DNA of 64,000 bases from Coptis chinensis (Eukaryota; Streptophyta; Magnoliopsida; Ranunculales; Ranunculaceae): NCBI GenBank assembly GCA_015680905.1, contig CM027378.1:88069501-88133500 (forward strand), written 5' to 3'. The notes beneath the pieces were generated by a model. That model did not search any database and had not been told where the DNA came from. It worked only from the letters and a program-made list of their open reading frames with translations. The stretch's first letter is position 1, and every line of letters begins with the position of its first letter. Shown in pieces: positions 25,265 through 62,188 of the stretch. Both the position numbers and the translations under genes were made by a program.

Positions 25265-25382
25265 TTCCTCACTGCTGGTTCTTGATGCCCCTAGGTGAAA
25301 TGTTCCTATAAGCCAAGGTAGGACTGCTTCTGGCAGAATTGATTGTTATTGATGAGTGTAACTGAATTGACATAGATAATTG

Positions 25383-26865
25383 ATGAGGTGGGGCTATAAT
25401 TTGTACTTTGTTACAACTTGTACGACTTTTTGGAACTTTGGTTTTGGAACCCTGAGTGCAAAGCCCATATATTTTGTTTGGCCCATTTCGTGCCTCGACT
25501 ATGTTTTGGGTCCCTCAGCCAAAGTGGAGTTCGGTGGTAATTATGGAAGAAAAACAGATTGGTGGCGAGATATTGGATATCGATCAAAACTGTTTGTTTG
25601 TTACGAGGGATAAAAACACATGCGAGATTTTTGGATATGAAATATTTTTGAGAGAGTATCATAACAGATTTGATCTAGTGAGTTCGAGGTTGGTTTTAAA
25701 AGCGAAAAACACACACTGGAAGGGGTGTTTTTATTAGAGAGTTTGCTAGAGATATTGAAGTGGATTTTCGAAAAGGACTTCTTCATCTTGTCAATCTAGT
25801 GAATCTATTGTTGTGTGACTACATGAGATCACTAAATTGAGTTCTTCCCATACTTTTTGATTGTCAGTTGCTCCTGCGAAAGGAGTGGTTCTTCTTCTTA
25901 CGAGAAGAGGCGAAATGTTGCAATATTGAAGATTATGGTATTCGGGTAATCATGAGACTTGATCCTCGTTATGAGTATTCCTATTTTGTAACTAATTGAT
26001 TTATTAGTAGATTTTGTTTTTCTATTGTCTGTGAAAGATGACATTGTGGGGTTTCCTTGTGATGGGGTTTTTGCCACATTAATCCTATATCTGTGTTCTC
26101 TTTGTTTAGTCGTATATTTTATGTTTTACTTTCTCTTCCTGTTATAAATCATCGTACTAGTCAGTTGCATCTTTCAAAATTCATTTAAATATATTGGAGA
26201 AATTTTCAATTGGTATTAGAGCGGTTACGCTCTTAAATATTTAAAAGCCTAAACGTGATCCTATTTGGTTCCTCAAAAAATATTTAGATGGAAGTTGATA
26301 AGTTTGGTATTTCCAATCGACCTCCTCAATTTGATGGGAACAACTTTCCCTACTGGAAAGCTAGAATGACAACGCTTACTTACAAGTCTTAGGTGATGAT
26401 GTTTGGATATAGTTGTAGAAGATGGTTGGGTTCATCCTACTCAAACTATCGGGTCTGGTGACACTGTTGTGACTTCTAAAATCTAGAAACAAATGGACTA
26501 ATGTTGAGAAGAAGACATTGTCTGGTCATAATAATAAGGGTCGTAGTGCTATCTTCATGGCCATGAATCCTAATGAATTCAAACGCATTTCAGCTTGTAC
26601 CACCTCAAAAGAGGATTGGGATAAGCTTGTTATGGCGCATGAAGGCGATAGTGTTGTCAAAGAGAGTAAGCTTGAGTTGCTTAAGTACTACTTAATTTGA
26701 GACCATGAAGATAGAAGATAGAAGGTGTTATGGCGCATGAAGGCGATAGTGTTGTCAAAGAGATAGTGTTGTCAAAGAGGATAGTGTTATGGCGCATGAA
26801 GGGATAAGCTTGTTATGGCGCATGAAGGCGATAGTGTTGTCAAAGAGAGTAAGCTTGAGTTTCAG
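25383..26865 (+). mobile_element. Ty1/copia retrotransposon fossil (5' LTR, PBS, start of gag)
   Basis: Plus-strand fragment. The LTR ends CA at about 26208 and is followed by a primer-binding site (TGGTATTAGAGCGG, 26211 on) typical of elements primed by initiator tRNA-Met. Gag starts at 26288 (MEVDKFGISNRPPQFDG, FPYWKARM) and is followed to about 26700 by the usual copia gag wording. A segment of about 45 bp (GCGCATGAAGGCGATAG) recurs three times between 26632 and 26860. The left LTR boundary is only approximate. No protease, integrase or reverse transcriptase remains. The element is broken and old. Confidence 0.75.
26211..26227 (+). promoter_or_regulatory. Copia primer-binding site
   Basis: TGGTATTAGAGCGG right after the LTR end matches the plant tRNA-iMet-type primer site (TGGTATCAGAGC) at all but one position. 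Confidence 0.8.
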
Positions 26866-36187: not shown

Positions 36188-36538
36188 GATCGAGAAAGAG
36201 AAAAACTTTCAAGCTTTTGGTTAAACCCTAGTGAGAGATCAAAAGGTTCAGTATGCAGAAAAAGGTAGCGGAAGAGATAATGAAAATTCTCTCACCAGAT
36301 CCTTTATATACAGATAAGATGGATGCTTAGGATGAGCCCAAACGGTGCGTCTTTTCGGGATGGAACTGCCATCATTACCTTTTTCGGGAAACGGGGTGTC
36401 TATTCGAGCCGTCTTTTCAGAGCCTTAATTAGTTGGGTATGTCAGTAGTTCCAACAAATAGTTTTAGAAAAGTATTCTCGCGCCAAAAGCATCGTCGCTT
36501 TAAGCGCCCACATGCTAGCTGGCACGAGCGGGGGCATC

Positions 36539-37004
36539 TGTAGGGGGATTTCCCATCACTGAACAGATGACACATGTATCGAAAATAACCTAAGACTATA
36601 GATGTCCAGAATGAGACGAGGACAATCGGATCAATTTTGTGAATAAGTGATCTCGTGTTCAGCACGAGTGTTTAGTAGACATCTGCCAAGCACATGACTG
36701 ACCGCCTTCAAGCATAACAGTTACCCAGTCCTTAGGAACTGATATAGACAGTTCCTGAATAAAAGGAAACTAAAGATGGCTATCTTTGATGATAAGGAAG
36801 GAATCATGATGACATATATATCTTAGGAGTTTCCTTCTGAGATATAATCTTCCCATACATGATGGGACATTATTATCAACAAAGAAAGTTACCTCTCATA
36901 AGATATGGTCTAGATTCAGATTTCCATAAGAAGAGGAATCCTAATAGAAAGGCAGAGTCCAAAGATGGAAGGAAACTCACAAGCGGTGAAGACAGCCCTA
37001 ACCC
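36539..37004 (+). repeat. LTR of the first Tat-type element (incomplete)
   Basis: Starts TGTAGGGGG and matches, in inverted orientation, most of the complete LTR at 61505-62188 (shared CACTGAACAGATGACAC, CAGCACGAGTGTTTAG, GACAGCCCTAACCCTAG). It is shorter than that LTR. Confidence 0.85.
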
Positions 37005-38661
37005 TAGTTATCACTAATTTAATACTAACATTTTACACATATAGTTATCACTAAAACTAATATATAATATGTAATATGGTGGCTACACTTTTGCTCAAAG
37101 CTGCCTACATATCCAAATCTTTCAAGATTGGAATCAAGCCTTCGTAGTTCTTAGTCTTATTTGTCTTGCATAAATATCATATATCATTTTTGTAAACTCG
37201 TACTTGTGAGTCACAGCCATCTCTGGGATTTCAATGCTCATAAAACCAAGCCTCTTATGGGCATAAAACTAAGTGGTCATTCCCGTACATTCAAGGAATC
37301 TAGACCTACATTCCCGCACACTCAAGGAATAAACCAACCCGCAAGGCGAATACCTTAGTTCCTCTCTAGGGCAGTTTCCTCCATGACTTCACTAGTCATA
37401 ATTAAACATTTCTTTTTATCTCAACCAGGAGGCGTGGAGAGTTATAAAGATATGGGTGACACGTGTAATTAATTTTCCTGATGTCTAAGTATCATAGCGT
37501 TGTATATCATAAAAGACTGAAATATCACATAGTAGTTAATACACGTATGCACGCATATATATAAAGTCTTAGCCTAGAGCCAAGCATGCTAATAGCCCTC
37601 TAGACCTATCCTAATAGACCTAATCATTAGCCAAGTTAAAGGTCAAACTTTGTCAACTAGTCAACAGTAGTCAACCAGTCCTAAACTCATCTAACCCAAA
37701 AACCCAAAGACTAAGGCCCAAAGTCTTTAGCCTTTCCCAAGCCCAACTAAAACTTAAGCCCATAATTGAAAATTAAAAATAAAACACTAAAGCCCACATA
37801 AACTGATTTCGGCCCAAGCCCAACACAAAAAAAAGGAATATGATCTCTCTCTTCTTCTTCCTCACCAGCACACCACTTAAACCGATCAAGGACCACCACC
37901 TCCACTCTTTGACCACTCTAAACCCATCGATCTTACTCCTTACTAAAAACCCAATATGCCGATACCATCAAATCTCGATTCTCTCACTCCTTACAAATCA
38001 CGTTCGACACCGTTAACGCTCCTGTCAAAGCTTCAACAGCGCTCAAACAACAATCAACCACTACCCATCATCCCCCAGCAACCCATGAATCATAAACCAA
38101 CCCAAAATAATAACCATATGAGTTCAAACCCACAATCAATAAGAGTTCAAAAGGTATACAAGACGATTTCTTTCTATTGGGCTTGCGCCTCCATTAATAA
38201 CCATATGCTTCAACAGTTCAATCTTTCAATAGTAATTCGGAAAAATAGCATACTAACATTTAACAAGTTTTAGAAATTAACAAGTTTTAGAAATACTAAC
38301 AGGATGAAAAAAATATATCGACAGAAGGATAAGCAGAACAACAAAAAAAATATTGAGCGAAAAACTCTGATAATAAAGTTTTTTCTTTGTACCCGTAAAA
38401 CTCTAGGTTCGGTGAAAATAGAAAAAAAAAATATAACTACTCACTCATGATACGCTCTTGCTATCCGCTGATATCAGCTATCAGTAAATCTCCAACAATA
38501 AACCTCTCTTCTCCTCTATGTAAAAAACTCTTTTTTTTTCTTCTCTGTGAAAAAAACCTCTACGAGTGAACTCCTTTTTGTTTTAAAACCCCCCAAAAAA
38601 CAAGGATGAAGGTTTATCTTTTTACCTACGGGGTTAATATCTATCCTATTTTTATTTTATC

Positions 38662-38707
<46 letters not shown>

Positions 38708-39719
38708 TATTGTACTAGTAAATATATATAAAAAAAAACGGGGTGTTATAGCCCCCTTCATGCTCGTGACAAGTTTTTAAATGTTCTATTCCCTTTTAGA
38801 CATGAGCCTAAGGATACCTAAAAGCATATTCTAGCTAGGACAGGTTGTTTGGGTGCCATCACATTAAGTGATAGTTTCATTGTTGGATCTCTTATTCTTT
38901 GGCACTACATGCTTTCAGGTTTTACAATCTATTTGCACTTATCTTGGTGACTGGTATTTTAGGTGGATCTTGATCCTTATGGTTCACCTTCTGTGTTCTG
39001 GGACTCTCTGCAGTGCAATTTGTTGCCGATGAAGGCATATTGATGTGCACAGCCACTGATTTGTCAGTGTTGTGTGGCGGCAATGAGGAGGTTTGTTACT
39101 ACACGTAAGCATATTTTCTTTTCGCCTCGAACAAATTTTTTCTTGTAAACTGAATTTAATCAACTCACTTGTTCTAAAGTAAGCTTTTTACAGGGACAAG
39201 TCTTAATATAGTTTATTTTCCATACTGCAAAAGGTGGGGATCATAATTGTGGCAGTGGTGTTTGTGCATTCTAGGTCCATAAGTTTGACTTGGTAAAAAT
39301 ACTTACACATGTATTGCTTATTTGAGTGCATTTTTGCTTTTTATTGTTTTGGAATTTTTTGTTTGTTTTAAGTTTACTTATGTATTGCTTATTTGTTGTA
39401 CCAGATTGGCCAATCAGTTGTGGTAGATGAATGAAGAAATCTTTGGTAGATGTTAAAATCCGCAGATTGTAAAATCTAGTTTTGCAGAGTGTCTATATTT
39501 AGTTGATTTATGTAAAAATTATGTGATATGATGTATTGTCAAAGACTAATTGTCTAGATGCTTCAAATACTTTTGTATTGGATGATAATAGTTAATGAAG
39601 TATAGTTTGTTATGATTCATTGTTAATTGAATATGGTGTTTTTATTGTATCTACATAAATTTCAATGTGTAGAATTTTCCAAATTAAAAAATCGTAATGA
39701 TAAGTAAAAGGTGTTTAAT
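37005..39719. other. No recognisable gene; (ATT)n microsatellite at 38661-38710
   Basis: Contains a 50-bp ATT microsatellite and, just after it (38738-38752), GGGGTGTTATAG, a wording often seen at ends of gypsy LTRs, but no partner repeat was found. A 105-codon frame at 37956-38273 (Pro/Asn/Ser-rich) has no recognised domain. Confidence 0.4.
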
Positions 39720-40170
39720 ATCTAGGTATGTTATTGCAACCCTAAAGGTGCGGCAAAAGCATCGTTTGAAATAGGCTGCCATACTAAAAACAAACACCCT
39801 TTATTGTGACGCTCTGGGTGCTACTAAAGCTGCAAAACTTTTTGCCATGAGTTACTGGTGTAGCAAAAAGAAACCCTTTTGCAACGCCAAAGGGTGATGT
39901 ACTGCTATTACAAGTAGTTTTTTGTGACGCCAAGTGCTGCAAATAGTTTGAATATCTTTAAATATCAATTTAGTTTAATAAAATGAAGTAGCGACGCAGA
40001 TAAAGTATTAGCAGCACAACTTGACGTGGCTAAAAAATAGAAGCTTTTGCAAAGCCCATTAATGCGTCACAATTAAGCTTTTGTGACTCACTTTTTAGCA
40101 GCACCTTCGTGACGCCTTGTTTAGCATTGCAATTGATCAGTTGCGACACTTTTTAGGACTTTTAGCAAAG
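39720..40170. repeat. Subterminal-type repeat array (GTGACGC units)
   Basis: At least seven variants of TTGYGACGC / GCGTCACAA occur in both orientations within about 450 bp (for example near 39809, 39870, 39925, 39984, 40065, 40108, 40142). Such arrays are typical of the subterminal regions of plant CACTA elements and some MULEs. No convincing terminus was found; ATTACAAGTAG near 39915 is only a weak CACTA-like end. Confidence 0.4.
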
Positions 40171-40336
40171 GGGTATGGCACTGCAGAAAACGTTGTACTG
40201 ATGCATTAATTATTTGTTATCTATATAAACATTAAATAGTATTATATTGTTATTGAAAAACTTACCTAGTAATAATGTTTGTTAATGCATATTAGACTAA
40301 CCATTTTTTTTTTTCTATTTTGGTTATTCTTGAAGG

Positions 40337-41274
40337 GATTTTTCCGTTAGCCATTGCTATAGTGCAGTGGTTAGTGAAACTTATGCAAATTGGTTTTGGT
40401 TCCTAGAACAGTTGAAACTTGTTATTTCAAGTGATAGAATTTTGACATTTTTTAGTGATCAGCATGTTGGACTGGTTAAGAATATTACAATTGTGTTTCC
40501 GGTGTCTTTTCACTTGTATTGTCTTTGGCATTTAAATAACAATGTTGGTTATGCTATATAGAAAGATAACAAGATGAGGAAATATGTTGTGAAGATATTT
40601 TCTGATTGTGCTTATGCAGCTTCTCATCATAAATTTTTTACTTGTGCTGAAAAGTTGAAGAAACATGGTGGTCTTCCTGTGCAAAGGCTTTAATTTTGAC
40701 AGATATTAGATTGAAAAATTGGGCAAATGCATACTTGCGCGGCGCTAGATACGGTGAGATGTGCTCGACACTAGCTGAATATTTCAATGCATGGATCACT
40801 AAGGAGCGCTTTCTGCCTATTACTCCTATGCTTTTTAGAATCATGGAAATGATGGTGGAAATTAGTTGGAACAGATTGGAGGAGTCTATGAAATGGAATT
40901 CCGTTTTATGTCCAAAAATAGAGATAATACTGGCTAGCAAGGTTGAAGCTGCAAGAACTTTAAGGGTGGTTAGATCCAATGAAAATCAGTTTCTAGTTCA
41001 TAGCGACGTTATTCATTCAGTTGATTTGATGAATAGAACATGTACTTGTAACTATTGGCATTTCAATAATTTCCCTTGCATACATGCTATCGCCTGTATT
41101 AGTAGTAAGGGTGATTCCTTTCGTGGCTACATTGATGAAGGATATATAGTGATCACGTTCAGGCAATGCTCACATTCTATCAAGCCTGCAGTTCCGAATG
41201 GTTCTATGCCAAGATGTATGCTTGATTCTCCTGTGGTTTATCCGTGTAGTCCAAAGATTGGTCCTGGTAGCTAG
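40337..41274 (+). pseudogene. MuDR-type (MULE) transposase remnant with SWIM zinc finger
   Basis: Reads IFPLAIAIVQ, then in a shifted frame SETYANWFWFLEQL, FSDQHVGLV and FHLYCLWHLNNNV, all conserved in the MULE transposase core. Further on come NWANAYLRGARYGEMCSTLA and FNAWITKERFLPITPM, then the SWIM-type finger CTCNYWHFNNFPCIHAIACI (CxCx..CxH), and ends at a TAG at 41272. In-frame stops follow LNNNVGYAI and GGLPVQRL and at least two frame changes are present, so it is dead. The N-terminal part with the first catalytic Asp is not visible upstream. It lies tail to tail with the ULP gene at 53.8-42.7 kb; together they fit a ULP-bearing MULE. Confidence 0.85.
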
Positions 41275-41552
41275 ACCCAAGAAGAAAAGAATTGAAAGCA
41301 CTGGTGTGATTCGTTAGTCTGTGATTAGTTTTGATGTTCTCGGCAAACCATATTTTTTTTGTTATCTTAATTAAGATTTTTAAGTTTGGTCTATGAGAAA
41401 TTGATACTCATTGTATACTTTTATTGAATGTTGATAGTCATTTGAGATTATTCGCTAGTCAGTTTGTTTTATTTTTTATTTGTTATAATGGAATTTATAG
41501 CCTGTGAAATTATTCATGTTGTAGTCGTAATTGAGAGTGTAACATCCATGTT

Positions 41553-41813
41553 TTTTTTTGATTGGCAATCCTGTTTCTAGCTTAGTTGGTAAAACCTTTG
41601 GGTGATGATACCAGAGGTCTGGGGTTCGAACTCTGCTATACACAACTGAGTTACTGATCTCTTTAAAAACAGGCTTGCCCACACATTTTTGTAAGTGCCT
41701 TCTAGCTTAGTTGGTAAAACCTTTGGGTGATGATACCAGAGGTCTGGGGTTCGAACCCTGCTACACACAATTGAGTTACTAATATCTTTAAAAACAGGCT
41801 TGCCCACACATTT
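41553..41813 (+). mobile_element. tRNA-derived SINE, tandem dimer
   Basis: Two copies with a 125-bp period. Each has a pol III A box (TAGCTTAGTTGG at 41578-41589 and 41703-41714) and B box (GGTTCGAACTC/GGTTCGAACCC at 41623-41633 and 41748-41758), then AAAAACAGGCTTGCCCACAC and a T-rich end. A 15-bp direct repeat TGTAACATCCATGTT flanks the whole (41538-41552, 41814-41828), as expected of one insertion event. A short T-rich leader of 24 bp precedes the first copy. Confidence 0.75.
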
Positions 41814-41828
41814 TGTAACATCCATGTT

Positions 41829-42643
41829 GTAGTGGGATATTGCACATGAACCATGTGTGAGACTTACTTTTTTTGAACCCATCTCTTTTAGAAGAGACTT
41901 CACCATTTTACAGGTACCATGCTATGTACTACAACTACATAGTTTGATGCTTCCTTTTAAACTGAGTGTTTCTTTGTCTTTGGAATCATGTACTCATAAT
42001 GCAAACAAAGCTAAACCCATTTGTTAGAAACTTGGAATTTAGGAAGCAATTGGCTGATGAGGTATTCAACATGAACAGACATAGGATATTAACGTTTAAG
42101 AACAAGCCACCACCTGCTTGTGACCATCGACAATGAAAAATGGTCTTGTTACAAGTGAAGTCCCAGATTAAATTTTGGTGTTCATTAATGGTCTCATTGA
42201 GGCTTTTCAAAATACGTATACATGAGAATTTATAAATTAAAATGTCATTATCTGTAGCAACTCTTAACAAAATTTGGTTCAATAGATACACATGATTCAC
42301 AATAGAGGATTATTCACTATATCTTACACTTGCAGGCTAATAAGTTGGGGACAAATTAAAATAACTAAAAAGGTGATAACAAATTACAAGAGCAACAGAA
42401 GATAGAACCTTTAAAGGTAGAAGCTCTTGTGTATTAAAGACTTGCAATGTGCTAGTGGTATAGGAGTAACATTTTAAAAGCAATTTAAGATAGTAGTCTC
42501 CTTAAAATGTTGCACATCAAATTGATAACACTAATAATAAATTTTACATAAAATGTGCAGACAGAGGACCCTACGGCCACAACCCGAATAACTACGATAC
42601 TAGCTAGCTAACAACAAGACCAAAATAACTACGAATTAATTGT
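41829..42643. other. Spacer between transposase and ULP gene
   Basis: No coding motif recognised on either strand. It begins with a CAACATCCATGTTG-type motif that overlaps the SINE target repeat. Confidence 0.4.
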
Positions 42644-43934
42644 GCAACATTCATGTTGTATTAAGGTTTCGACATGGCCAACATGGTTTGTCAGACAAAA
42701 TTATGTATACCTTGGATGCCCGATCGCGATGCATAGCTTCCTTTTCTACTGCAAGTGGCATTTGTCATGTGGCTGCCAAAGTTTCCATGAAGAGACGCAC
42801 GTAGAGTGCGCAGTTAGCCCTGCCACATAAAAAATTAAGAACAATTAGTGCAACATTCATACTACTCCAGGGCACAAGTAGTCTTTCTCTTACGACTCTA
42901 CATCAAAATTTAACAACAGAAGTAAGCCAAGTAATTCATCAGTCACTTACGACCCTCGATCTTCTTGTGTGCAAATTGCAGACTTTATCGTTGGCTTATG
43001 GTTTATTATTTTAAGCATTCCATATGTCTTTTGCCATTAATCGCTTGCGTCACACAATTCAACTTTACATTTCAAAATTTAAGGTCAACTCAGCAATTGT
43101 TCCGCATCTTGGAAGCAAATGTCTTCTTTGTTTCTTGGAAGTATTAAATTCTAGTGAGTCTATTTGTCTGAGATTATGTTATAAATGAGTAGAGTCTAGT
43201 GATTTCCTACTTTGTCATTATTGTACTTTCCATGAATCATGGGGAAAAAGCATAAGATGACGTCGTCGCCCAAGGACTCTATCTCGGAAATCAAGTGTGA
43301 TTCCACACGTGCATTGAGATTGTCTCTTACATAGGTCTTGAATACAAATAAAAGTATGAAGTTAGATGTACTCCTTGTAAACTAATATTTAGAGAGAATA
43401 AAGGATATTACAAGTTCAAACTTTACCCAAAGACAATAATCGAATAAAAATGTCTCTTTTTTAGCTCCCTTGACATTTCTTTGCAAACATCGACCATATA
43501 CCAATTAATGATCTGCAAAGAAAAACTAAGAATCATTAACATCTAATTAGCATATTAATCTCATTAATTTGATGCCATTGTAACAGTGCAACAACCATGT
43601 TGCCATGCGAAGTAACAAAGTAACATTATATTCATGTTGCATTGAGATATCCATTGCAAAACAAAACTCATCTACATGTTTGCTATTGAGCCTAATCAAA
43701 TTCAGGCTAGTAGTGAAGGTACAATTGTTATCCTCACCTGAATATCTACGAATCTCCTCAACTAACATGAGGTCCATAACTGTCGTTGCACTGAGTGTTA
43801 ACTATTTCCACTCATCTTCCCACGCTATAGTATTGCGAAATAAACAAAAAAGAAAGAAAAACAATTTATTATGTGCCGCACGCACCAATATAACACATCA
43901 ACAACAACATTAATTTTTAAGCTTTGTTACTTAC

Positions 43935-44598
43935 TCTGGTTTTGCATTCCTGAAAAACTGCTCAACCATCTTCTTCTCCTTTTTCTCCAAATAAGGTCAT
44001 GCCATGCTTGTAGTGACATCAGGGATTTTTAATGACATTGGGTCCACTATTGGAGTAGGCCAATCATCCACAGTCATAGGTTTTACAACCACTTCTTTCT
44101 TCTTTGCCTTTCTCCTCTTTGCCTTTCTCCTCTTTGTGGGGCTCTTTTTATCACCGCCCTCAGGTTTTTTCTCCTTTCTTGTTTCCAACATTGTTCTCTT
44201 CTTTACCCTTTTGACTAATGAACCTATTTCTTCATTCTTTTTTGTTTTCGACACTTTTTGCTAATCTTATTTTCTTCTTCAGTTTGCACGGCACTATCAT
44301 CGTACCATACAATCTCTAATTGCTTCTCATTATCTATAAAAGTATCATGGAACAACTCGCTCTTCTCCTCCTTCAACCTCATATTCTCCTCATCCAAAAC
44401 TTGGACCTCTTTCGTGATATTTTCGATCTTTTCGTTGTTATTATTCCGATTATATCTCAATTCATCAATTAACCTTTTCAGATTTTCATTTTCAATTCTC
44501 ATGGCTTCTTCATTTGAAACAAGTTCTCTTTCAACTTTGAAGTTGAGACCTAACAATTTTTCCTCCTTGCTTGATTTAGTACCCAATTTGACTAATAC
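43935..44598 (-). pseudogene. ULP gene exon 3: coiled coil and Lys-rich region
   Basis: Begins after CTATTTTCAG with VLVKLGTKSSKEEKLLGLNF, followed by a heptad-rich coiled coil (EAMRIENENLKRLIDELRYN, ITKEVQVLDEENMRLKEEKS). The frame shifts by one within an A-run near 44255, then KTKKNEEIGSLVKRVKKR, a strongly basic KRRKAKRRKAKKK (nuclear-signal-like) and PTPIVDPMSLKIPDV. A stop follows just before EKKEKKMVEQFFRNAKPE and the donor GTAAGT. Confidence 0.7.
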
Positions 44599-45112
44599 CT
44601 GAAAATAGTGCACAAAAAACACAGTTAAGATTCAAAACTAGCTTGCAATCTCATTTAATTTATTTGATGTCAATGTAATAGTGCAACATCCATGTTGCAG
44701 TGGGATTTGTCACTGCATGAGAGTTTACAATGGCATTTGACACTGCATTGGCATTTGACACTACAACATCCATGTTATTGTAGTAACTTACATTGCAACA
44801 TCCATGTTGCAGTGGGAGTTTACAGTAGTTGATCCATGTTGCAGTATCATATTTAGACAAAACCATGAGACTTACATTTTCAAGACCCATCTCCTTTAGA
44901 TCGAGGACACTTCTCCATTGTTTCTCAGAGTATATCCAAGCTCCACTTACAAACTTTAGGCTCGGCAGATTCAAATCCATCTATCGGTGTGATTATCTTT
45001 GTATGCTCACACACCCAATACTGTAATTTGAAACAAAAGTATTAGCAAAAGGGATTATATTAGAAATAAAATTCATTTGCAAAACTGAAGCTTGTTGTAT
45101 TGTGGTGTGTTA

Positions 45113-45927
45113 CTTCAAAAGAGTTTGTTTAAAAGTGAGGTTTATCTTAAATTGTTTAGAGGTTGAGTTTGGGAGTTGTGAAGAAGAAAGGTAGACTTTT
45201 GGTATAGATTAGATTGGTTTTAAGCTAATAAAAATATGAAAGCTTTAGTTGTTGGTATTGAAATGACTTGAAAACATTTAAAGAAAGATTGATTAAAGTT
45301 TGAAATAAGAATAAGTAGATAAGTTTGAAGATTGAAATAAGAACAAAGGAAAATAACAAGTTTTAATTAAAAGGAAATGAAGAACAATAAAGTAAAAACT
45401 TGAATTGAAAAACTAGACAAGAAATTAAACAAATCAAATGGTTTGGGTCCTAAGACAATGGATGCTTTCTCTCTCCCCTACTTTTGGATTATATACCCCT
45501 ACTTTTGCCTTTTATAGATTTGCCCTTCTCCAATACAAATGAGACACCTCACACTTCACATACTTTTGCTTTTGCTTTTTGATTTCTTCTTGACCAAGGT
45601 AGGTTTTAAGAGAATGTCATATTTTGAGATAAGGGCCTCCATCTCTGGTATTCTGAGTTGAGGGCTTTGACCTTTGACCTTGATCGTTGACTTTGACCGT
45701 TGACTTTGAGTTTTTCAGCACTTTTCCATAGCAGCTTTTGATCTTCATAATAAGCATGATTAAGGCTCCTTTTAGTGTTAAGATGCAGCTTTTATGATAA
45801 ATAGTCTGAAATACTCCATAATCTGAAAAAGGCAATAAAAGCTATGAGTTGTATTTTCGTTAAGCGTAAGACGAGCTATAATACAGCAATATACAGGTAA
45901 TAAAATGCACATTTGGGAGCTGATCAC
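45113..45927 (-). repeat. 3' LTR of the nested retrotransposon
   Basis: Matches 51707-52991 from CTTCAAAAGAGTTTG to CATTTGGGAGCTGAT once the nested MITE is removed. It keeps the MITE's empty site at 45491-45498. Confidence 0.85.
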
Positions 45928-47914
45928 CACCCCCAAATAGCATCTTGCTTGTCCTCAAGCAATGATGAAAGAAAAAAAACTAAGATCACAAATGAGTGAT
46001 TTATTATAAGTTATACTAATCTCGTTTCGCAAAGTGCGATTGCATTGACCATATGCAACAAGGCCTTAAACCACTAGGAATTCCCTAGTGGACGAGTTTT
46101 AAGTCTCGTGAGAGTTTTCCAATGAAGGTACGCACAAACTTCTTCTGTTTAGTACAAAGGATCTTGTTTCCTTATTTATTCTCAGAAGTTCATACATCTC
46201 ATTAGCAGTGAATAAAGACAAGCTCCTTTGAACTTAGAATAATAACATATGTACAGTAATTTAATCATCTAAAGATAAATGTGAAAAACATGAGCAATGA
46301 AATCCAAAAGCAGAGTTGTTTATGAGGCTTTTGGAGAGCTTCCTTAAGGTGGGTTCTCACAGGGGTGTGTTGCAATCACAACTCTCTGATAAATTTACTC
46401 AAGGTTCATTATCTTCAGTGCATCGGGCACTTATATTCCTCACATACTCAAATGATGTCCAAAGAAACCGGGGTCGATTGATCACGTTTACCACTTACTA
46501 TCACACCATTATATTCTTAATCGAGCTAAATGTCTTTTATTAGGAGTTATGGGGATAGGGTGATGGTTTAGAAAGAAAAAGGAAGGGAAAAACAAAATCT
46601 GATAAGTCGAGAAACTGGGTCTTCAAGATACTTGTAACCAGATAAGAACGTTGTTTTGTTCTTTTGCTTCCGAATTGTGATACATTCTTTTAGCCCTTTA
46701 GTTTTGTGACACCATATGATTTTGAATTTTTGGGAGTTCTAACTCTTCTCTTTTTTTTTTTTATCCTTTTGATTTTAAACTTTTGGGAGATTCGATTATT
46801 TTGACTCCTTTGATTTTTTTGGAGTTTTGGTTTTTTATGGATCTTTCTTTTCTTTTCTTTATTTTCTTTTTGAAGCAAATAATTGTTCTGTTTTTGTACA
46901 AGGTCTTCTTTTATCTTTTTATGATATCCATCCAATTATCAACTTTTCAGATGGATAAGCTTTTTATTGTGTGTTGTAACAGGTTTAAGAATTTTTGGTG
47001 AAGAATAAAAATGTTTTTAGAAAGGGTGAAAGCTCAAGAGGGGTAACTAGAGGAAAACTATCTTTTTGGGTTTTTAACGTTTATTTAGCTATATCGATCC
47101 AAAAAGGGCCTAAATTCCCTCATAGGATATGGCATGGTAATCAAGCAAGTGGTCGTGTGGTCTTTCTATCCGGACATCCTTTGTGTCATCACTCAATAAT
47201 CATTCAGATGAGGTTTTTAGCTAGATTCTCACAAGATATGGAACTTAATTGTTCTAACCTTGGCTTCGGAAACTCACTGCTATATACACACAAATGCTGA
47301 TGCATGCCATTCATGAAAAAATGTAGAAACTATTGTATGTATATTAGTCTAAGTGCGAAGAACAAGTCCTTACTCTATTGCTATAATGAGACTTCTAAAC
47401 TCTTTATTCATCATAGAGAAAGGAAACAAGACTTTTTAATACTAAACGAAAAAATATTTTTGGTTTTTTTCAAAAATATTTTAGAAAGGAAGAAATATAC
47501 TATTATATCTACTATATAGAAAATGTCTAGTTTTTGCAAAATATTACTATACCACCCCCAGATAGAACTATGTTTTATCTTCAAAGTATGAAGAGATAAG
47601 GAAAGATATTACCATAAAAACATGAGCAAAAACGGTGATACACCTGTATTCTGTTTTTCATGATGAAATACGCCACCCCCAAATAAGTTTAGGGCGTGGG
47701 TTGTTTGATATAGAACGAGAAATACATGGTTTACTATACTAGGGATATTTATTCTATTATAAAATCTTTTTGGGTATTTGTATTTTTGAAAACATATATG
47801 TAATGCAGAAAATCTAACATGCATGCATGATTATGATTAGACTACGATTGAAGAAATAAAAAGTATGTAAACAACTATCTATACAAACACATATGAAATG
47901 TGTGCGTGTGGTTG

Positions 47915-47941
47915 TTTTTTTTTTTTTTTTTTTTTTTTTTT
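47915..47941. repeat. T27 homopolymer
   Basis: A run of 27 T's inside the nested retroelement, possibly the tail of a lost A-tailed insertion, but no retroelement body is seen beside it. Confidence 0.8.
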
Positions 47942-50900
47942 AGTGTAATTGCTTTCCTCAACCTAAAGATATCTCTAACCATATAGAGGTTTTGACAAAA
48001 AGATAAAATAATACGTTGATATGGTATCATTTTGGTTACTTCGAGGCGTATAATTTTCATTTTTATATCTTCAGGTTTTGAAAACTATGTAAAGATGTTA
48101 TAAAGAGACTCATACTCAAAAGTCATGATTCTTAATGCTAGTTTTTGAAAACAAACCATAACTGGTGATCTCAGGCAACTTTCGTGTCGGCTCTTTATTG
48201 AACCCAATCTAGTCAGACTGTGGCTTCAATTATGTGTGTGTTAGGGGATTTACTACACAAGATGTAATGGGAAGGTTTATCTGATTTGACACTAGTGGAT
48301 GGTGGAACTAGGTCTCTTTGGTGGATTTTGGTAGTTTTGGTTAAAATATGGTGGAACCAATGCTCTGTTCTGATTATTGTAGGTACCTTGTCCTTGTTTG
48401 AATGTATTTGGTGGTTTGACAAACCCTGGAGGTGGTTGGGTTTGTGGCTTTGGGTGTTGCCTCCATGGTGCATTTGGTACATTGAAAACACACACTTTTT
48501 TTGGTGTAAGTGATGGTATGATGGTGAGCAAGGGACAATTGGTATCTGGTTTAAGTTGAGACAGAAAGTGCATGGTGATATGTGCGACCCTTAGTAACAC
48601 ATAACTGATCCTCAAACCGCCCTTAGAAGAATAGAGATTGCATACTTCTAAGGGTTGGTCTATATGGAATCCATTACCCGTTTTATTTTTGGAAAATCAC
48701 ATCACTATTGATGTATCGAGAATGTTTGCATAATGAAAACGGAGAAAAACAATTATTTTGACAAAGAAATGAAAATTTGTATTCTCGCTCCACAGGTTTG
48801 CACTTACTCAAACAACGAGTAAAAAGTATTTTACAAAGAATATACGAGATATATGTGGACTAAGGCTCCAGCACTTACAACCACACACTCCAAATGGAGC
48901 GGTCCAGTTACCTTAATGATGCATTTCCATGAAATGCATCAAGAAACCATGCTATGAATATTTATAGTCAGATATTCAAGATTATATATGTGGTCGTTTT
49001 AAGTAAGATTCCCCAAGACTATGCATATGAGATGGATGATATGCTATTAACTATATACTAATAATATAAATAGTTGGGGATCTTTATAGAAAAATATATG
49101 AAAGCATACACCCCCAATTCAAATAGAATGAAATGATGTAGTTGGAGTGTAATATGCAGAATGATAAGAGAATATTTGTGTAACCCATCATGGAACTTAT
49201 GTAATAACTCATTATAGTTGAATTGTCCAAAAGAGTGAGATGTTGGTAGTATATATCCTTCATGAGGCTCAATTGATGGGGAATAGGACATACCAGGTTT
49301 CTTAACTACTGAAATGATGGACTCTTGCGTTTGTATATTGGGCAAAGTCTCTTTACTAGAAAGGTTTAGAAAATTATGAATGATCTTAAAGGCAATTAGC
49401 TTAAGTGCAAATTTGAGGTTTCTTTGAAATGGTTTCGTGGTGCAGTCCTCAGAAATGGGTGGATTTTTTATGAATGGAGGTTGGATTTCAAGAGGTGTTA
49501 AATTGGGATGGTGGTGGTTGGGTGGTGGTTGTTCACATGATCTCAAAGACTTAGAGAATTCTTCATCTAGGTTTGGCGTTTCCATAAGATTATGGTTCAA
49601 TTCATATCTGTAATAGTAAGGATGTCACAAATTTGTTCTATCGATAAGTCTTGAACGACCAAACTAAATTGAAATCCACTTTCCACCATAGATTTTATTC
49701 TCTATTTTCCAAGCACTTCATTTTCTTTGTCCTCTCTGCCTAGATCTTCATAAAATTTCTCAATGCCATTTTCCAATACATACTCTTGAGTTTCTTTTGC
49801 CGGAGTTTCTCATTTATAGGTGATGATGCATTAAGGGATGTGAGAAAAACTGTGAATTCAGGTATATAGTCATCATCATAAGATTTGGAATTCTCATGAT
49901 AGTCACGATAGTCATCATCATTTAACTGGTTATGAGTATCAAGATGGGCTTTAGCAATGGGCTTTGTTATAGTAACACCTTGTTTCTCTTGTTAGTATTG
50001 TTTGCTTGGCCATTTCCTGGTAGAGTTAGCTGTGATGAATGGTGTAGTGGAATATGAATTTGATATGGATGGTGATGTGAATGGTAATGGGTTTTGGGTG
50101 AAACCATACTCTAACTAACCATATGGATACATGAATGATGGTTGACTATTTGTGGTGGAACTCCATGAATTGTCGGCATGATTAGAAAACTTTTGAGTGT
50201 ATGGATTACTAGGGAAACTTGAAAATTGAGGTTCATAATCATAAGGATTTCCCGTAGTAAACTCAAATTCGGTATATGATGGACAATGAGATAACTAGTG
50301 ATAAGGACTACCTCGAAAAGAACAAGGTTCTAGGGTTTCATTGTAATTCCATGACGGTTGCGATGCATATTGATAAGACATGAATGCTCAATCAATGATG
50401 ATGCACAAACAGTAGAAATTTATTTTTTTAGATTTTTGAAAATATTTGCTTGGTCTATAATTTACTATACCCTGTTCAGAGGAACAATTGGGCGTGAGAC
50501 TAGGATGGCTCTACTACACGTCTCAGAAGAGTAGGCAGTCACTTCACCAAGTGGTGTACTACCAAGAATCTCACTCACGATAAATCTGGGGGAGGGGAGT
50601 GAGGAAGGTAGTTGGTCCACCGGAATCTGGTAACTTATTACTCTAAATCCTTGTGGCTATATTTTTGTTCTTTTCTGGAGGAGCGTGACTACTTTGGGCA
50701 CTAGTTGATTGATTTTAATAAAGCAACGTCCAATTTACCTACATTGGGTAATGACTTCCCAATGGTTGTTATGTGACTTGGGTTTAGCCTTATGCGCGAA
50801 TGTAAATTGCAGTGCTAAAAGTAAAATTCAAACAATCACGTAAGCATGCTTGAACACACAAGATATCCTCTTACTTAAGCTTCAAGGAGGTTTAGAATTT

Positions 50901-51706
50901 ATATTTCAAACCATGCTTACACGCTGCTTGAGGAGAAGGCGACGTCGGTTGGCGCGTGATCTGAGAATCAGGCCTAACCTTTCGAGCTTTACCATATTTT
51001 AAATTACAATAAAGGCCCACTTAAAAAGCCTACAGGTTGGGTTTTTGATAATTTATACAAATTTGCCTTCAAGGGCCCAAACTTAAAACTAAACTAATAT
51101 TATACTAATATAATATATTAACTAGTTTTAGATTGATAACCTAGATTAACTAGAGTTACCAAGTTGATTCATAGTGTGTGAGCTATGATCCACAACTTGC
51201 CTCATACACTTGAACTTCCCAATGCAATTAAAACTCTAATTCCTTGGTAAGTATATAACTTAAACCAAATTTAACTCATGTTCATCATAAAGAATCAATC
51301 AAAAACTTATTTTTCCTATTTTTTTTTCATTTTTTTTTTTATCTTTAACTATTACAAATAAGTTCCACTGACTTCTCCTACTCTATTACAAAATCTGGGT
51401 TCATAGTACAACTATTCATCAAAAACCAACTGAGCTTCAAAAAAAACTGGACCCACATCTCTGGAGGTGACTAAGCGGTCGTCCCCTAGGTAGCTCACGT
51501 TCGCCCACTGACACCGGTGAAGTTTTGTTGTCTTTTGGCTGTGTCTTCAGCTCCTCTCCAGGTTGTTGGTCCTGCACCCTGATTTGCAAGAAAGTAGATC
51601 AGTACTAAAAAACAATAAAATAAAAAGGACAAAAATTGAAAAAAATAGAAATGGAGGGATGAGAATGATGCTTCCTTCATATATTCTCAACCAAGCACTC
51701 TTCTTC

Positions 51707-52991
51707 CTTCAAAAGAGTTTGTTTAGAAGTGAGGCTCATCCTAATTGTTTAGAGGTTGAGTTTAGGACTTGTGAAGAAGAAAGGTAGACTCTTGGTATAG
51801 ATTAGATTGGTTTTAAGCTAATGAAAATATGAAAGCTTCAGTTGTTAGTATTGAAATGACTTGAAAACATTTAAAGAAAGATTGACTAAAGATTGAAATA
51901 AGAACAAGTAGATAAGTTTGAAGATTGAAATAAGAACAAAGGAAAATAACAAGTTTTAATTAAAAGGAAATGAAGAACAATAAAGTAAAAACTTGAATTG
52001 AAAAACTAGACAAGAAATTAAATAAACCAAATGGTTTGGATCCTAAGACAATAGATGCTTTCTCTCTCCCCTACTTTTGGATTATATACCCTAGGGGTGC
52101 AAGTGGATATCCAAATATTCGAATCCGATTCGAATTCTTATTCAAAAAATCAAATATTATCCGAAAATTTCGGATATCAGATTCAGATTCAGATAATTTT
52201 TTATGTCCAAACTAGTTTCGGATACGGATTCAGATACTGCCATATCCGCATCCGAAAATATCCAATCCGATTTTAAAAATTAATAGTTATTATATATAAT
52301 TTATTTATTTATTTATTATTGTATAAAATATTATATAAAATCATAAACTAATAATATAAAATTATAATAACAAAATAATAACAATAAATGACAAATATAT
52401 ATATTTATAATAGTTTTTATAGTGGTAAAATGAATTATTCATAGCAAATAAAATTTTAATTAATATTAATTTTCGGATCGGATATTATCCGATATCCGAT
52501 TCGGATAATTTTTTTAATATCCGTCGGATTCGGATTCGGATATCGGTATAAATTTTTGGATGTTTGCACCCCTAATATACCCCTACTTTTGCCTTTTATA
52601 GATTTACCCTTCTCTATTACAAATGAGACACCTCACACTTTACTTTTGATTTTGTTTTTTGATTTCTTCTTGACCAAAGTAGGTTCTAGGATAATGTCAT
52701 ATTTTGAGATAAGGGACTCCATCTCTAGTCTTATGAATTGAGGGCTTTGACCTTTGACCTTGACTGTTGACTTTGACTTTTTCAGCATTTTTCCATAGCA
52801 GCTTCTAGTCTTTATAATAAGCGTGATTAAGACTCCTTTTGGTGTTAAGATGCAGCTTTTATAATAAGTGGTCTGAAATACTCTATAACCTTAAAAAGGC
52901 ACTAAAACCTATGAGTTGTCTTTTCGTTAAACGTAAGACGGGTTATAATGTAGCAATATACAGGTAATGAAACGTACATTTGGGAGCTGAT
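51707..52991 (-). repeat. 5' LTR of the nested retrotransposon, with nested MITE
   Basis: Same sequence as the repeat at 45113-45927, longer because of the hAT MITE at 52092-52574. Confidence 0.85.
52092..52574. mobile_element. hAT-type MITE (483 bp) inside the LTR
   Basis: Ends TAGGGGTGCAAG and TTTGCACCCCTA are inverted and match the hAT terminal consensus (TAGGG-TG). An exact 8-bp duplication ATATACCC flanks it (52084-52091, 52575-52582). The inside is AT-rich with repeated ATCCGA/TCGGAT units and no coding capacity. The sister LTR has a single ATATACCC at the same place (45491-45498), which proves the boundaries. Confidence 0.92.
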
Positions 52992-54532
52992 AAAAAACAA
53001 AACGAAACCTACCAAAAGTGCAACCACACAACCAAAAACTGTCACAAGCTTGTTCTTTTTACGTTTTGTTTGATCCATCAGCTCCGCATGGATTACTTTT
53101 AGCCACGAGATTCTTCTCATCCCATTCAAATCTTCAATATGTGGAACAAAAGACCAATTGATTCATGTTGGGTTAGGGAAGAAGATTTTCGTAGTCAAGT
53201 ATAGGGACATCAACCTCACAAGATCGTCTTCCATCTCAATCTTCTTTATAACACTTGTAATCTCATTATTTACTCCTAACAATTTGATTTCGTCCTCTCC
53301 TCCAAAGTAGATCTTCATAAACTCCGACTTGTTACTCTTTCGAACACTTTTTGCATACAACACCACAGTTTTCCCTTTCAAAGGCAACCCAAAAATCAAG
53401 GCAACGTCTTTCGCTCATCATCTACTCCTAAGTATGTCTCCAAAACTAACCAAACATCAATGTTTGCTTTTATTGTAATGTTAACATTCAACCTATTTTC
53501 AATAAAGACACAAAAAAGGCGTGTAAATGGTGTGTCCATCATTGTTTCCTTGTGCACTTCCGTTATGTCACCTCCAATCAAATCCACAATCTCAACCATT
53601 AACTTCAAACTTGACCTATAACTCAACAACTCACTTTTCACCAAATTTTGTTTACCCTTCCCCTCTATCTTTTCTTTGCCTTTCATTTTTGGGTTTACAC
53701 TTGTTGAGGTAGTTGAACGTATCCTTACTTTGTTTGGGAATACTCAGTTTAGATTTAGATTTTCCAACAACATCGACCTTCCCTTGCAGCATAACCTGAA
53801 AGAAAATTAATGATTTAGTAGCTTGTTTTAACCAATTTCCACTGCAACATTCATGTTGCCATTGCTTTTTTGACTACAACATGGATGTTTCAGTGGAAAA
53901 CATGCCTCAAAACTCAAACAAATATCACCAATTTAAGCCTCAAACAACACTCATGTTGCATTCGACCCAAACACTCATGTTGAAGTGGAATTTAACACTA
54001 CAACATCCATGTTGCATTGGGATTTGACAGTGCAACATTATTCTTGTTGCAATGGTAAGGCACACTGCAAATCAACCCTAGTATATTCAATGCAACACTC
54101 ATGTTGCAGTGAATACATTCAACAAGTTTTAACCAATTTATTTCCAATTTTTCATAAAATGAAAATCGTAGTATATCAAAATGGTGAAACTATCAATGAA
54201 ATTTGGGTTCTAACCTTTTTGCCATCTGGTTGTCCTTTTTTTGGAGTAGATTTTGTGCTTGCTTGCACATGATTGTTTGAATCGTTACTTTTTTTTTTCA
54301 TTACGGTTCTTCATTTTGAAATTTGGGTTTAATTTAGGGGAACTAGGGTTTTTTGTTTGCAATCTAATTGTTATTGGTGTATTTCTTTTTTTATCTATTT
54401 ATCTAATTTTGATTTATGCTTAAGGGACAAATTTTTAATATTACCAACAAATGGACCGGGTGGGCTTTTGACATAATTAGAAAAGTCAGTGTCTTTTTTC
54501 CATAATTAAAATGGAACATTGGACCAATCTTC

Positions 54533-55126
54533 TATTCAAATGGACGCTTGTTTGAAGACGAAATTAGGATTCTTCAATGATTAGTAGAATGGCTTAAAGA
54601 ATAATTCAACAACAGGATTTTGATTAAGTAGAATGACTTAAAGAATTTCTGAGCCCTTCAAAATTCGCTAATATTTGAATGAAATTTACGAACCTAGTTT
54701 TGTTTCTACTTTTAGGGTCAATTAGATCAGAACGCACAATGATGGTGTTCTCCGTAATGATGGTGTATGGCTGTAATGGTGCATGTATTATAGTGGGAAA
54801 GGGGTTTAAGGGTAAGCCAGTAATAATGACAGTAATAGGTGATTATGTCATGAGATGAAGTCAAGTGATGAGTCACCAATCCATTGAATATGTGAATGTT
54901 GTTGAGTGTGCAAGTGTTGCTGAATGTGCAAGTGTTGCTAAGTGTGCGAATGTTGCGGGTGTTAGTTTGTCTAGGGGTCGCATTACACTAAGGGAGTCAT
55001 TGTGTGTGCACATCACGTGACTGATGGGATGTCCCTTACACCCCAGATATTTTGATTTAGTGCGTTCGTGACGATGCCTGGTTTAAATTAAAAGAGAATT
55101 AAAATAAAAAGTTCAATCCGTATATC
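54533..55126 (+). repeat. Dispersed repeat, copy B
   Basis: Ordered matches to 22755-23126 (CAAATGGACGCTTGTT, AGGATTCTTCAATGATTAGTA, CTACTTTTAGGGTCAAT, TTCGTGACGATGCC, AAAAAGTTCAATCCG). An extra segment of about 300 bp (54740-55040), including an 18-bp minisatellite, is absent from copy A. It lies just upstream of the ULP gene and could be part of the MULE's outer end. Confidence 0.6.
54891..54960 (+). repeat. 18-bp minisatellite, about four units
   Basis: Unit TGTGCAAGTGTTGCTGAA and variants, four in a row at 54891, 54907, 54925 and 54943. Confidence 0.8.
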
Positions 55127-55127
55127 A

Positions 55128-56350
55128 TGTTGGAATCTCTAAGTAATATTTCAATCTACTTAAGTGAGAGCAAAGTAGAGGAGGAGAACTTTGTGAGTTC
55201 TCTCCACTTGTGTGCTTGAAGATAGTCCCACATTACTTATCCACCACTAACACAACAAGTGTAGGAACCGTTATGGTCGCATCGAATGACTACGAACCGC
55301 GAAACACCATGCGCAGCGGAATAAAGGTGTTTCACGATTTTGTTTAGGAATCAAACCTTTAGATCAGCTGTGATAACTCTGAGAATCCAAGCTCTATGAA
55401 TCAGCAACCTCTTGATCTTCTATTGTATTCATATCCTTAGAATGGACATTGTGTGGGCAACGATCTACCACCCTTTTCTTTCTCTCTTGGCCTCTCTCAC
55501 TCACAAAGTCAGAACCGATTTTGGAACTAACCTTTCTTGAGAAAGCCTTGAGTAATTTCGGCCAGAGAAAAAAGGTTTCTATTTATATGCTACAACAAGG
55601 ACCATGAGGAGAAATCAAGGTTAGGTCTTATGACGGGCTTGGGCTTCCCATGTTCGCCCAGAACACACGGCCCAAGTCCGTCAACAAATGGCTTATTCCA
55701 CTAAAGGTCATTGTTGCACTACCGCCCTAATCCTAAATTACGTGTTACGTTTATGGGCTCCATATTATATGCTTGTTGATCTCCCCGTGTTTAAGATATC
55801 GAATGCCCGTTGATTAAGTCAAGTTACTGACAACTACATTAATCAACTTCTTATGTCTTTGAGTAGTACCACTCAACCTCATTGTCATGTCGGATTAAAT
55901 CCACCTGCAGGGTTTACATGACAATCCTTATGAGCTCCTCAAGGGGACATCATCAACCCGACTTCCTGCGAGTCACGGATTCCTTCTATAATCAATAGCA
56001 CACCTTACATACAATGTCATTACCCAATCCATTGAGTTTGTTGATTCATAAATGAATCTCACTCATTGATGATTTAAAGCAATGTACAATGCACATAAGT
56101 GCTCGTTATTATATCCGGATTAAGAGGACAAGCATCCATAATAACAGAGGTGTTTGTTCTCTTATATAGTCAGTATAAAGATAAACAACCTCACTTGGTC
56201 CTGTTCAATACACACAAAGTGTACTAGTGTAATTCTGTAGTCAAGATAGACTAATACCAGATTATACTACAACCGTACCAATGGTTTATCCAAATCCATC
56301 TAGGTTGTGAACGTTTACTTATACTTTATAAGGGTATACCGAACCTTCAG
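55128..56350. mobile_element. Ty1/copia LTR fragment
   Basis: Starts TGTTGGAATC and carries phrases I associate with long plant Copia LTRs (CATGCGCAGCGGAATAAAGG, CATAATAACAGAGGTGTTTG, CTAGTGTAATTCTGTAGTCA). No gag-pol is attached. It ends where the integrase of the neighbouring gypsy element begins, so one has cut the other. Orientation not determined. Recognition is from memory of such LTRs. Confidence 0.5.
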
Positions 56351-61504: not shown

Positions 61505-62188
61505 TGTAAGGGAAATTTCGAGTATCCCCTGATCTTCCTCTGTGTCTTGTGATCTGGAATCCTTTGCTGAATAAAGAAGGGATGAGATGATGGTGAGTTC
61601 AGGGTTGAACCGTCTAACGGCTGCCTACGTATCTCCTTTGTTCTATTGGAGAATCAAACCCTATTTTGCGTAGTTCCTAAGAGCGAATCCCTATGGTTTA
61701 TATAGGAAGGGTGACGAGAGTCCTAGGGTTAGGGCTGTCCTCACCGCTTGTGAGTTCCCTTCCATCTTTAGACTCTGCCTTCCTATTAGGATTCCTCTTC
61801 TTATGGAAGTTTGAATCTAGACCATATCTTATGAGATGTAAGTTTCCTTGTTAATCATAATGTCCCATCGTGTATGGGAAGATTATATCTAAAAGGTAAC
61901 TCCTAAGATATGTCATCACAATTCATTCCTTATCATCAAAGATCGACATCTTTAGTTACCTTCTATTCAGGAACTGTCTATATCAGTTCTTAACAACTGG
62001 GGTAACTGTTATGTTTGAAGGCAGTCAGTCATGTGCCTGGCACATGTCCACTAAACACTCGTGCTAAGCACGAGATCATTTATTCACAGAACTGATCCGA
62101 TGGTCCTCGTCTCATTCTGGACATCTATAGTCTTAGGTTATTTCTCATACACGTGTCATCTGTTCAGTGACGAAAAATCCCCTTTACA
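61505..62188 (-). repeat. Complete LTR of the second Tat-type element (684 bp)
   Basis: Bounded by TGTAA and TTACA on the plus strand, so TG...CA in either direction. It is the best reference copy of this LTR family in the window. Confidence 0.88.

Follow-up and report, generated by a model that had tools for sequence, protein, structure and literature searches.

The segment at 40337-54340 of the window, by which we mean the whole 64,000-nucleotide stretch analyzed, may be the relic of a MULE whose VANC-like accessory gene recognized its own element and countered its silencing, a reading by analogy to which we give a probability of about one half. The segment carries part of a MULE transposase, a broken gene on the opposite strand and an excess of the near-palindrome GCAACATYCATGTTGC, which in this window is confined to the unit and lies mostly in its non-coding DNA.

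A MULE transposase remnant and a decayed gene tail to tail

The two gene blocks are laid out as follows:

40334..41274, plus strand: MULE transposase remnant (Pfam profiles, ORF breaks)
42650..54301, minus strand: accessory gene, broken, multi-exon (GT..AG junctions placed by eye)
E1 54215-54301, E2 53013-53795, E3 44876-45020, E4 43935-44598, minus strand: accessory exons E1-E4
E5 43738-43824, E6 43427-43512, E7 42951-43336, E8 about 42650-42819, minus strand: accessory exons E5-E8
53013..53414, minus strand: Plant-Mobile-Domain-like segment (PF10536; 134 aa with one in-frame TGA)
43935..44598, minus strand: coiled-coil-like region (by eye), then a frame change, then a lysine/arginine-rich stretch (from the translation)
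42650..43512, minus strand: Ulp1-like exons E6-E8 (by eye against Ulp1 signatures)

The remnant is placed among the MULEs by PF10551, the MULE transposase domain, which it matches at E 1.5e-8 and 35.4 bits (curated cut-off 27.6) over profile positions 32-99 of 99, so that the first third is absent and the later two thirds are present. A SWIM finger (PF04434, E 4e-7) is found on the plus strand within the same 40334-41274, and together these matches bear out the MuDR-type transposase remnant with SWIM finger that the first-pass annotation had placed on this strand. By eye, its frame is broken near 40.37 kb, by a stop at 40.56 kb and by a frame change before 40.7 kb; no MULE N-terminal part was seen by eye among the plus-strand ORFs of at least 25 aa in 36500-40600 or among 57 ORFs of at least 90 aa elsewhere on both strands.

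Tail to tail with this remnant, the proposed accessory gene runs on the minus strand from an ATG at 54301 down to about 42650, and such a reverse orientation relative to a mudrA-type transposase is the arrangement of KAONASHI/ULP-MULEs. Its eight putative exons were assigned by eye from the sequence alone, and their edges vary by up to 3 nt between computations. The segment at 53013-53414 in exon 2 matches the Plant Mobile Domain (PMD), a domain of the host silencing proteins MAIN/MAIL, over residues 2-125 (PF10536, E 2.7e-4 and 6e-4), and at 20.7 and 19.5 bits, below the curated cut-off of 34.9, is here termed PMD-like. One reversed and eight shuffled control sequences gave nothing at E<=0.05; the PMD-like part had no match among PDB sequences at E<=10, and its single-sequence structure model is not interpretable (mean pLDDT 42.1). 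DUF1985, a domain found in VANC proteins, was absent at E<=10 from a profile search of exon 2 and 3 pieces, and its loss by decay is possible since the gene is broken. In exon 4, bZIP_1 matches at no better than E 0.092, and the lysine/arginine-rich stretch holds the short tandem peptide repeat KRRKA KRRKA, with a 15-bp tandem repeat at 44095-44136 in the DNA.

Exons E6-E8 we take to be Ulp1-like from residues read by eye against Ulp1 signatures, with a stop codon coming after the presumed catalytic His, and on this basis the accessory protein probably carried an Ulp1-like end. Pieces of exons 5-8 gave no Ulp1 match in Pfam at E<=10, nor did two pieces of the gene in NCBIfam at E<=10, such weak-match searches being limited in that HMMER filters discard most matches above about E 0.1. 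Against PDB sequences at E<=10, a 39-residue piece containing exon 6 matched nothing and exon 7 gave three matches, none of them an Ulp1 protease, the best being a C2H2-type protein (E 0.0031, residues 82-116). The single-sequence model of the exon 7 piece is not interpretable (mean pLDDT 39.9); in Foldseek it drew 772 matches at E<=10 and 0 at E<=0.001, and a SENP/Ulp1-type entry was absent from the best 50 of the 772. The DUF1985/coiled-coil/Ulp1 gene claimed earlier keeps its minus strand, its tail-to-tail position and, by eye, its coiled-coil-like region, but neither DUF1985 nor Ulp1 obtained a profile match.

Nested insertions

Three further insertions, all of which the first-pass annotation had pointed out, were recovered within the unit:

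41553..41814, plus strand: SINE-like dimer (125-bp period, two tandem copies, 95% alike)
45110..52991, minus strand (by eye): LTR element in intron 2 (paired repeats)
52092..52574, no strand: hAT-type MITE in the right LTR (TIR and 8-bp duplication)

The dimer lies between the two genes and consists of two 115-nt units, 96% alike (41575-41689 and 41700-41814), flanked by the 14-bp target-site duplication GTAACATCCATGTT (41539-41552 and 41815-41828). As to a tRNA origin, ARAGORN gave no match anywhere in the window and Rfam none at E<=1 in 41000-42300. The two LTRs, at about 45110-45924 and 51704-52991 and identical in 746 of 823 aligned columns, lie inside intron 2, the rest of which amounts to about 110 bp. 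The orientation of the LTR element was read by eye from a purine-rich tract adjoining the left repeat. No 5-bp duplication was established for it; the hexamer CAAAAC was rejected as its target-site duplication, lying, by eye, outside both repeat ends and not at them. The MITE within the right LTR has the TIR TAGGGGTG..CACCCCTA and the 8-bp duplication ATATACCC expected of a hAT MITE. The succession of events proposed earlier is readable in part: the unit preceded both the SINE and the LTR element, and the LTR element preceded the MITE, but SINE and LTR element cannot be ordered relative to each other.

Extent and unity of the element

The unit had been drawn to 55126, but 54530-55129 belongs to a different repeat, with another copy at 22753-23125, and 55126 is therefore not established as a MULE end. 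A comparison of 54300-55400 and 36900-40340 with the whole window showed neither TIRs nor a 9-bp duplication. That transposase and accessory gene belonged to one element is supported, if not proved, by the DNA between them, which contains motif-like sequence (41509-41570 and 41815) and an exon3/intron3-like segment (41820-41907, a 93-bp copy at 73%). Of the ULP-bearing KAONASHI-type MULE originally described, there remains a MULE transposase beside a reverse-oriented gene, but with DUF1985 undetected and Ulp1 recognized by eye alone. Scans of viral contigs with two protein queries and an exact pattern, and of prokaryote contigs with an exact pattern, found no relatives, as expected since the DNA is from a plant.

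A near-palindromic motif confined to the unit

The sites of GCAACATYCATGTTGC, listed without strand, are distributed thus:

53844..54107: intron 1 sites with <=3 mismatches at 53844, 53876, 53944, 54000 and 54092
53968 and 54032: weaker intron 1 sites, in 32-bp register
44683..44842: intron 3 sites at 44683, 44763 and 44795; 44827 weaker
43588..43640: intron 5 sites at 43588 and, weaker, 43625
42850..42865: weak intron 7 site (4 mismatches)
42644..42659: site over the presumed stop codon, at the 3' end of the accessory gene
41539..41830: intergenic site doubled by the SINE dimer (41539 and 41815, the target-site copies)

All 12 window sites with <=3 mismatches, and all 9 with <=2, fall inside 40337-54340, as against a mean of 0.45 and a maximum of 4 sites at <=3 mismatches in 100 whole-window shuffles, the motif having been discovered in the same data used for these statistics. 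Independent of the chosen 16-mer are the counts in the unit minus the LTR element and SINE, where the 8-mer ATGTTGCA occurs 14 times (simulation maximum 9) and the 10-mer AACATCCATG 7 times (maximum 4), or 6 without the second SINE target-site copy; the maxima come from 300 second-order Markov simulations, with low-complexity words excluded. Of 302 16-mers drawn at random from other parts of the window, a single A-rich one had at least 12 near matches, the median being 2. When the SINE duplicate is dropped, 10 of 11 sites lie in introns or intergenic DNA (non-coding DNA makes up 2468 of 5816 bp) and only one touches an exon, while the LTR element has zero sites at <=3 mismatches. A short motif that recurs in the non-coding DNA of its own element but is rare outside it is the VANC pattern, seen here in one copy and one window. 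Against a VANC-like reading count, besides the domain results above, the 5-mismatch sites, of which the window has 53 (shuffle mean 35, maximum 51), 24 of them outside the unit. That only one copy was seen weighs against inferring selection on the motif.

The sites are only partly regular: 2 of the 6 intervals below 100 bp between <=3-mismatch sites equal 32 bp. At 7 of 16 sites AGTGGGA (<=2 mismatches) adjoins the core on one side, and at 3 of the 16 it is mirrored, so that a common orientation is merely a tendency. No literature match to spellings of the motif was found.

Proposed function and rival explanations

On the reading favored here, the second gene, opposite to the transposase, would have encoded a protein recognizing its own element, made up of a PMD-like segment, a coiled-coil-like region bearing a basic stretch, and a probable Ulp1-like end. 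As a dimer it may have bound the copies of GCAACATYCATGTTGC spread over the element's introns and intergenic stretches, with some sites 32 bp apart, about three helix turns, within the proposed binding array. Such binding would free the element from host silencing, in the manner of VANC proteins at Arabidopsis VANDAL elements, and the protease end would take SUMO or ubiquitin-like marks off the silencing proteins at the element. A further-reaching version, which we consider doubtful, would see here a second MULE anti-silencing lineage, in which a relative of the MAIN/MAIL domain was turned against silencing: its protein, PMD-like in place of DUF1985, would carry an Ulp1-like end and recognize a dyad target in its own introns, partly at three-turn spacing.

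The most serious competitor, possible if on the unlikely side, is that the sites are functionless minisatellites, one intron segment having spread by slippage and gene-internal duplication. It can draw on the 41 bp at 88% that introns 3 and 5 have in common around their sites (which multiplication of motif blocks through duplication would also produce), the 93-bp exon3/intron3-like copy between the genes, the 32 nt alike at 78% around 42644 and 42850, and the tandem array of period 32 at 53976-54038 in intron 1. However, over the 11 sites mean pairwise identity falls from 0.83 in the core to 0.37 and 0.45 within the next 16 bp and to 0.31 and 0.30 farther out, random pairs giving 0.28. The core identity, like the core information of 1.33 bits versus 0.35-0.47 bits (16 sites), is inflated because the sites were selected by core. 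Of 5 pairs with 32-bp spacing, 4 have a core better conserved than the spacer, and the remaining one, with the better-kept spacer, favors neutral spread; the rarity of exon contact and the near-perfect dyad of the core also speak against neutral spread.

An ordinary KAONASHI/ULP-type relic, with the motif incidental and both genes possibly from separate insertions, would account for the KI-MULE-like layout, the decay of both genes and the fact that no shared termini were found, but sits poorly with the motif statistics and with the motif site and exon3/intron3-like segment between the genes, and we judge it improbable. Still less credible is that the repeats served the transposase, as subterminal-repeat-type binding sites, and not the accessory protein: their confinement to the unit in the window is as expected of transposase sites, but they are internal and intronic along the accessory gene, with no recognized end nearby, and we reject this as the main reading.

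Relation to known systems

In Arabidopsis VANDAL MULEs, the VANC protein recognizes short motifs that recur in the non-coding DNA of its own element and removes silencing. Binding of the motif together with loss of DNA methylation marks a VANC protein. VANC21 is located on short motifs, often arrayed in tandem, in introns, between genes and in terminal non-coding DNA, the motifs being YAGTATTAY for VANC21 and AGTTGTCC and AGTTGTAC for VANC6, and the variable parts of VANC proteins contain tandem peptide motifs (PMC5735166). The relic resembles these systems in its non-transposase MULE gene, its motif in its own introns and intergenic DNA but rare elsewhere, its tandem motif blocks and the tandem peptide repeat in a variable part of its protein. 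It differs in having a PMD-like match instead of a detected DUF1985, a longer, near-palindromic motif and binding that is predicted. Unlike VANDAL21, which has motifs upstream of the transposase, the relic has no <=3-mismatch site there, the corresponding part of the element not having been found here.

In the KAONASHI layout, the ULP domain and mudrA point in opposite directions (PMC2528002), and Ulp1-bearing VANC (KIU) elements also recognize motifs of their own kind, according to a review (PMC13317346). With the KAONASHI (KIU) MULEs, the relic shares a reverse accessory gene beside a MULE transposase and a probable Ulp1-like end; unlike them, it has a putative Ulp1 with no profile match, ends that were not found and a PMD-like part. 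Captured PMD-C fused to a MULE transposase occurs in several grasses and Amborella, and an anti-silencing use was speculated by the authors (PMC5418596). The relic likewise has a PMD-like segment within a MULE, although this sits in a gene of its own, one with motif arrays in its introns, and is not fused to the transposase. A PMD-ULP MULE with intron motifs was not found in the literature searched, and work on eudicot VANC evolution may describe related cases.

To the question of why a DNA transposon keeps an ULP gene, the relic offers a testable answer, namely that what the gene probably targets lies within the introns of the element itself; should intact relatives share the dyad, protein and target would be jointly testable. 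If true, the proposal would tie the PMD to transposon counter-defence, in line with the speculation in PMC5418596.

Composition of the unit

In character the window resembles transposon-rich nuclear DNA of a plant; judged by eye, its open reading frames include a transporter gene as well as coding stretches of Ty3-type and LINE elements. Within it lies a unit that belongs, by its transposase, to the MULEs:

40334-41274, plus strand: remnant of a MULE transposase, with Pfam hits to MULE (E 1.5e-8) and SWIM (E 4e-7)
41553-41814: SINE-like dimer, flanked by a 14-bp duplication
54301 (ATG) to about 42650, minus strand: broken accessory gene, opposite to the transposase
Exon 4 of that gene: a coiled-coil-like stretch is encoded first; the frame then changes, and what follows is rich in lysine and arginine and includes a short peptide repeated in tandem
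About 45110-45924 and 51704-52991: LTR pair in intron 2 of the accessory gene
52092-52574: MITE with an 8-bp duplication, ATATACCC

The SWIM-bearing transposase remnant, the gene opposite to it, and the SINE dimer between them, the intronic LTR element and the MITE, all described in the first-pass annotation, were recovered. The MULE profile is matched only from position 32 onwards, and the preceding part of the domain was not seen among the ORFs inspected to the left of the remnant. Also to its left, 38974-39105 (plus strand) holds part of the coding sequence for a tRNA dimethylguanosine methyltransferase of TRM1 type (PF02005, E 5.5e-7), either a captured gene piece or a pseudogene. The two LTRs are identical in 746 of 823 columns, and apart from this insert only about 110 bp of intron 2 are left.

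For the accessory gene we infer eight exons from GT..AG junctions read by eye. Exon 2, in one frame, codes for 134 aa with one stop, and residues 2-125 match the Plant Mobile Domain (PMD, PF10536) below the curated cut-off (E 2.7e-4 with X at the stop, 6e-4 with the stop as W); nine control copies (eight shuffled, one reversed) returned no hit at E<=0.05. The DUF1985 domain claimed for this gene found no match at E<=10 in profile searches of pieces of exons 2 and 3, and the claimed coiled-coil part is retained as the coiled-coil-like stretch in exon 4 preceding the frame change. As to the claimed protease, exons 6-8 carry residues that by eye resemble the Ulp1 domain (IINWYMVDVCKEMSRELKKRHFY; PMIHGKYNNDKVGNH-stop-TLLIYN; ANCALYVRLFMETLA); profile, sequence and fold searches lent this likeness no support, and a Ulp1 identity is probable rather than established. 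Between the two genes, 41820-41907 aligns with the exon 3/intron 3 junction at 44832-44919 (93 columns, 73% identical), and may be another incomplete copy of that gene's sequence, the accessory gene being duplicated there in part.

A motif concentrated in the unit

A repeat search uncovered one word recurring between 41.5 and 54.1 kb, the 16-bp near-palindrome GCAACATCCATGTTGC. With <=3 mismatches it has 12 sites on both strands of the 64 kb (11 in a first, single-strand scan), all 12 within 40337-54340, against a mean of 0.45 and a maximum of 4 in 100 shuffles of the window. With <=4 mismatches 14 of 19 sites lie inside the unit (shuffle mean 5.0), and with <=5, 29 of 53 (shuffle mean 35); hence, the weak sites alone prove little. 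A word test not built on the chosen motif agrees with this excess: the unit without its inserts holds ATGTTGCA 14 times and AACATCCATG seven times (both SINE target-site copies counted), the simulated maxima being 9 and 4 (300 runs, low-complexity words excluded). Of 400 random 16-mers drawn, the 302 falling outside 40337-55126 were used for comparison; a single A-rich one of these had at least 12 matches, the median being 2. All these motif statistics rest on one decayed copy of the element; viral and prokaryote contig scans, where plant relatives are not expected, returned no relatives. Another locally repeated word (CGCCATAACA, TGTTGTCAAA) occurs at 26628-26834, mostly as a compact cluster at 26.6-26.8 kb, in contrast to the dispersed motif.

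The site at 41539 is the SINE-made duplicate of that at 41815. The remaining 11 lie in intron 1 (five), intron 3 (three), intron 5 (one), between the genes (one) and over the presumed stop codon of the accessory gene (42644); the chance of at least 10 of 11 being non-coding is about 0.0013 (binomial, 2468 of 5816 bp non-coding), tandem copies not being independent. Two of the six intervals below 100 bp between sites with <=3 mismatches equal 32 bp, as do five of ten once weak sites are added, some of these chosen for being in register; a single array with a 32-bp period (2.0 copies, 80%) is detected by Tandem Repeats Finder. Compared pairwise, the 11 sites have an average identity of 0.83 across the core; the value is 0.37 and 0.45 for the 16 bp on either side, and 0.31 and 0.30 farther out (random pairs, 0.28). 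In four of the five pairs spaced by 32 bp, conservation of the core exceeds that of the spacer; both figures favour the core because the sites were picked by it. Flanks are shared by the intron 3 and intron 5 sites (41 bp, 88%) and by 42644 and 42850 (32 nt, 78%).

Comparison with anti-silencing systems

An own-element motif, mostly intronic and partly arrayed near three helix turns, recalls the target-site pattern of the VANCs, the anti-silencing proteins of Arabidopsis VANDAL elements. Motif density and helical periodicity reportedly matter there, in Sasaki's 2022 work. In VANDAL21, VANC21 binds YAGTATTAY motifs located in introns and in the non-coding DNA between genes and at the termini, and it removes DNA methylation; blocks of the motif are often tandem repeats, and VANC6 motifs differ (PMC5735166). 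According to a 2026 review citing Sasaki 2022, Ulp1-bearing VANCs (KIU) recognise motifs only in KIU elements (PMC13317346). Unlike a VANC, the accessory gene gave no DUF1985 match in the pieces searched, and hence we do not file the unit as one. Its PMD-like part instead brings to mind the MAIN/MAIL silencing proteins and the PMDs captured by MULEs; an anti-silencing role has been suggested for the latter (PMC5418596).

By analogy, the accessory protein would have bound the motif sites in its own element and thereby lifted silencing from it. The dyad target and the coiled-coil-like part together suggest that it may have acted as a dimer. In the least supported step, its protease end would have removed SUMO-type marks from silencing proteins.

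Right boundary and neighbouring repeats

The position formerly given as the right end, 55126, falls near the terminus of a different repeat (54530-55129) and so is not established as the end of the MULE. This repeat is collinear with 22753-23125 (213 bp aligned at 80%, and two further short blocks), a copy that lies 3' of an ORF (23474-25345, minus strand) that is cationic amino-acid transporter-like by eye. Further, inverted copies at 36900-37007 and 61723-61830, 94% identical, lie beside two oppositely oriented Ty3-type elements, whose coding parts span roughly 27.4-32.0 kb (plus) and 56.7-61.1 kb (minus).
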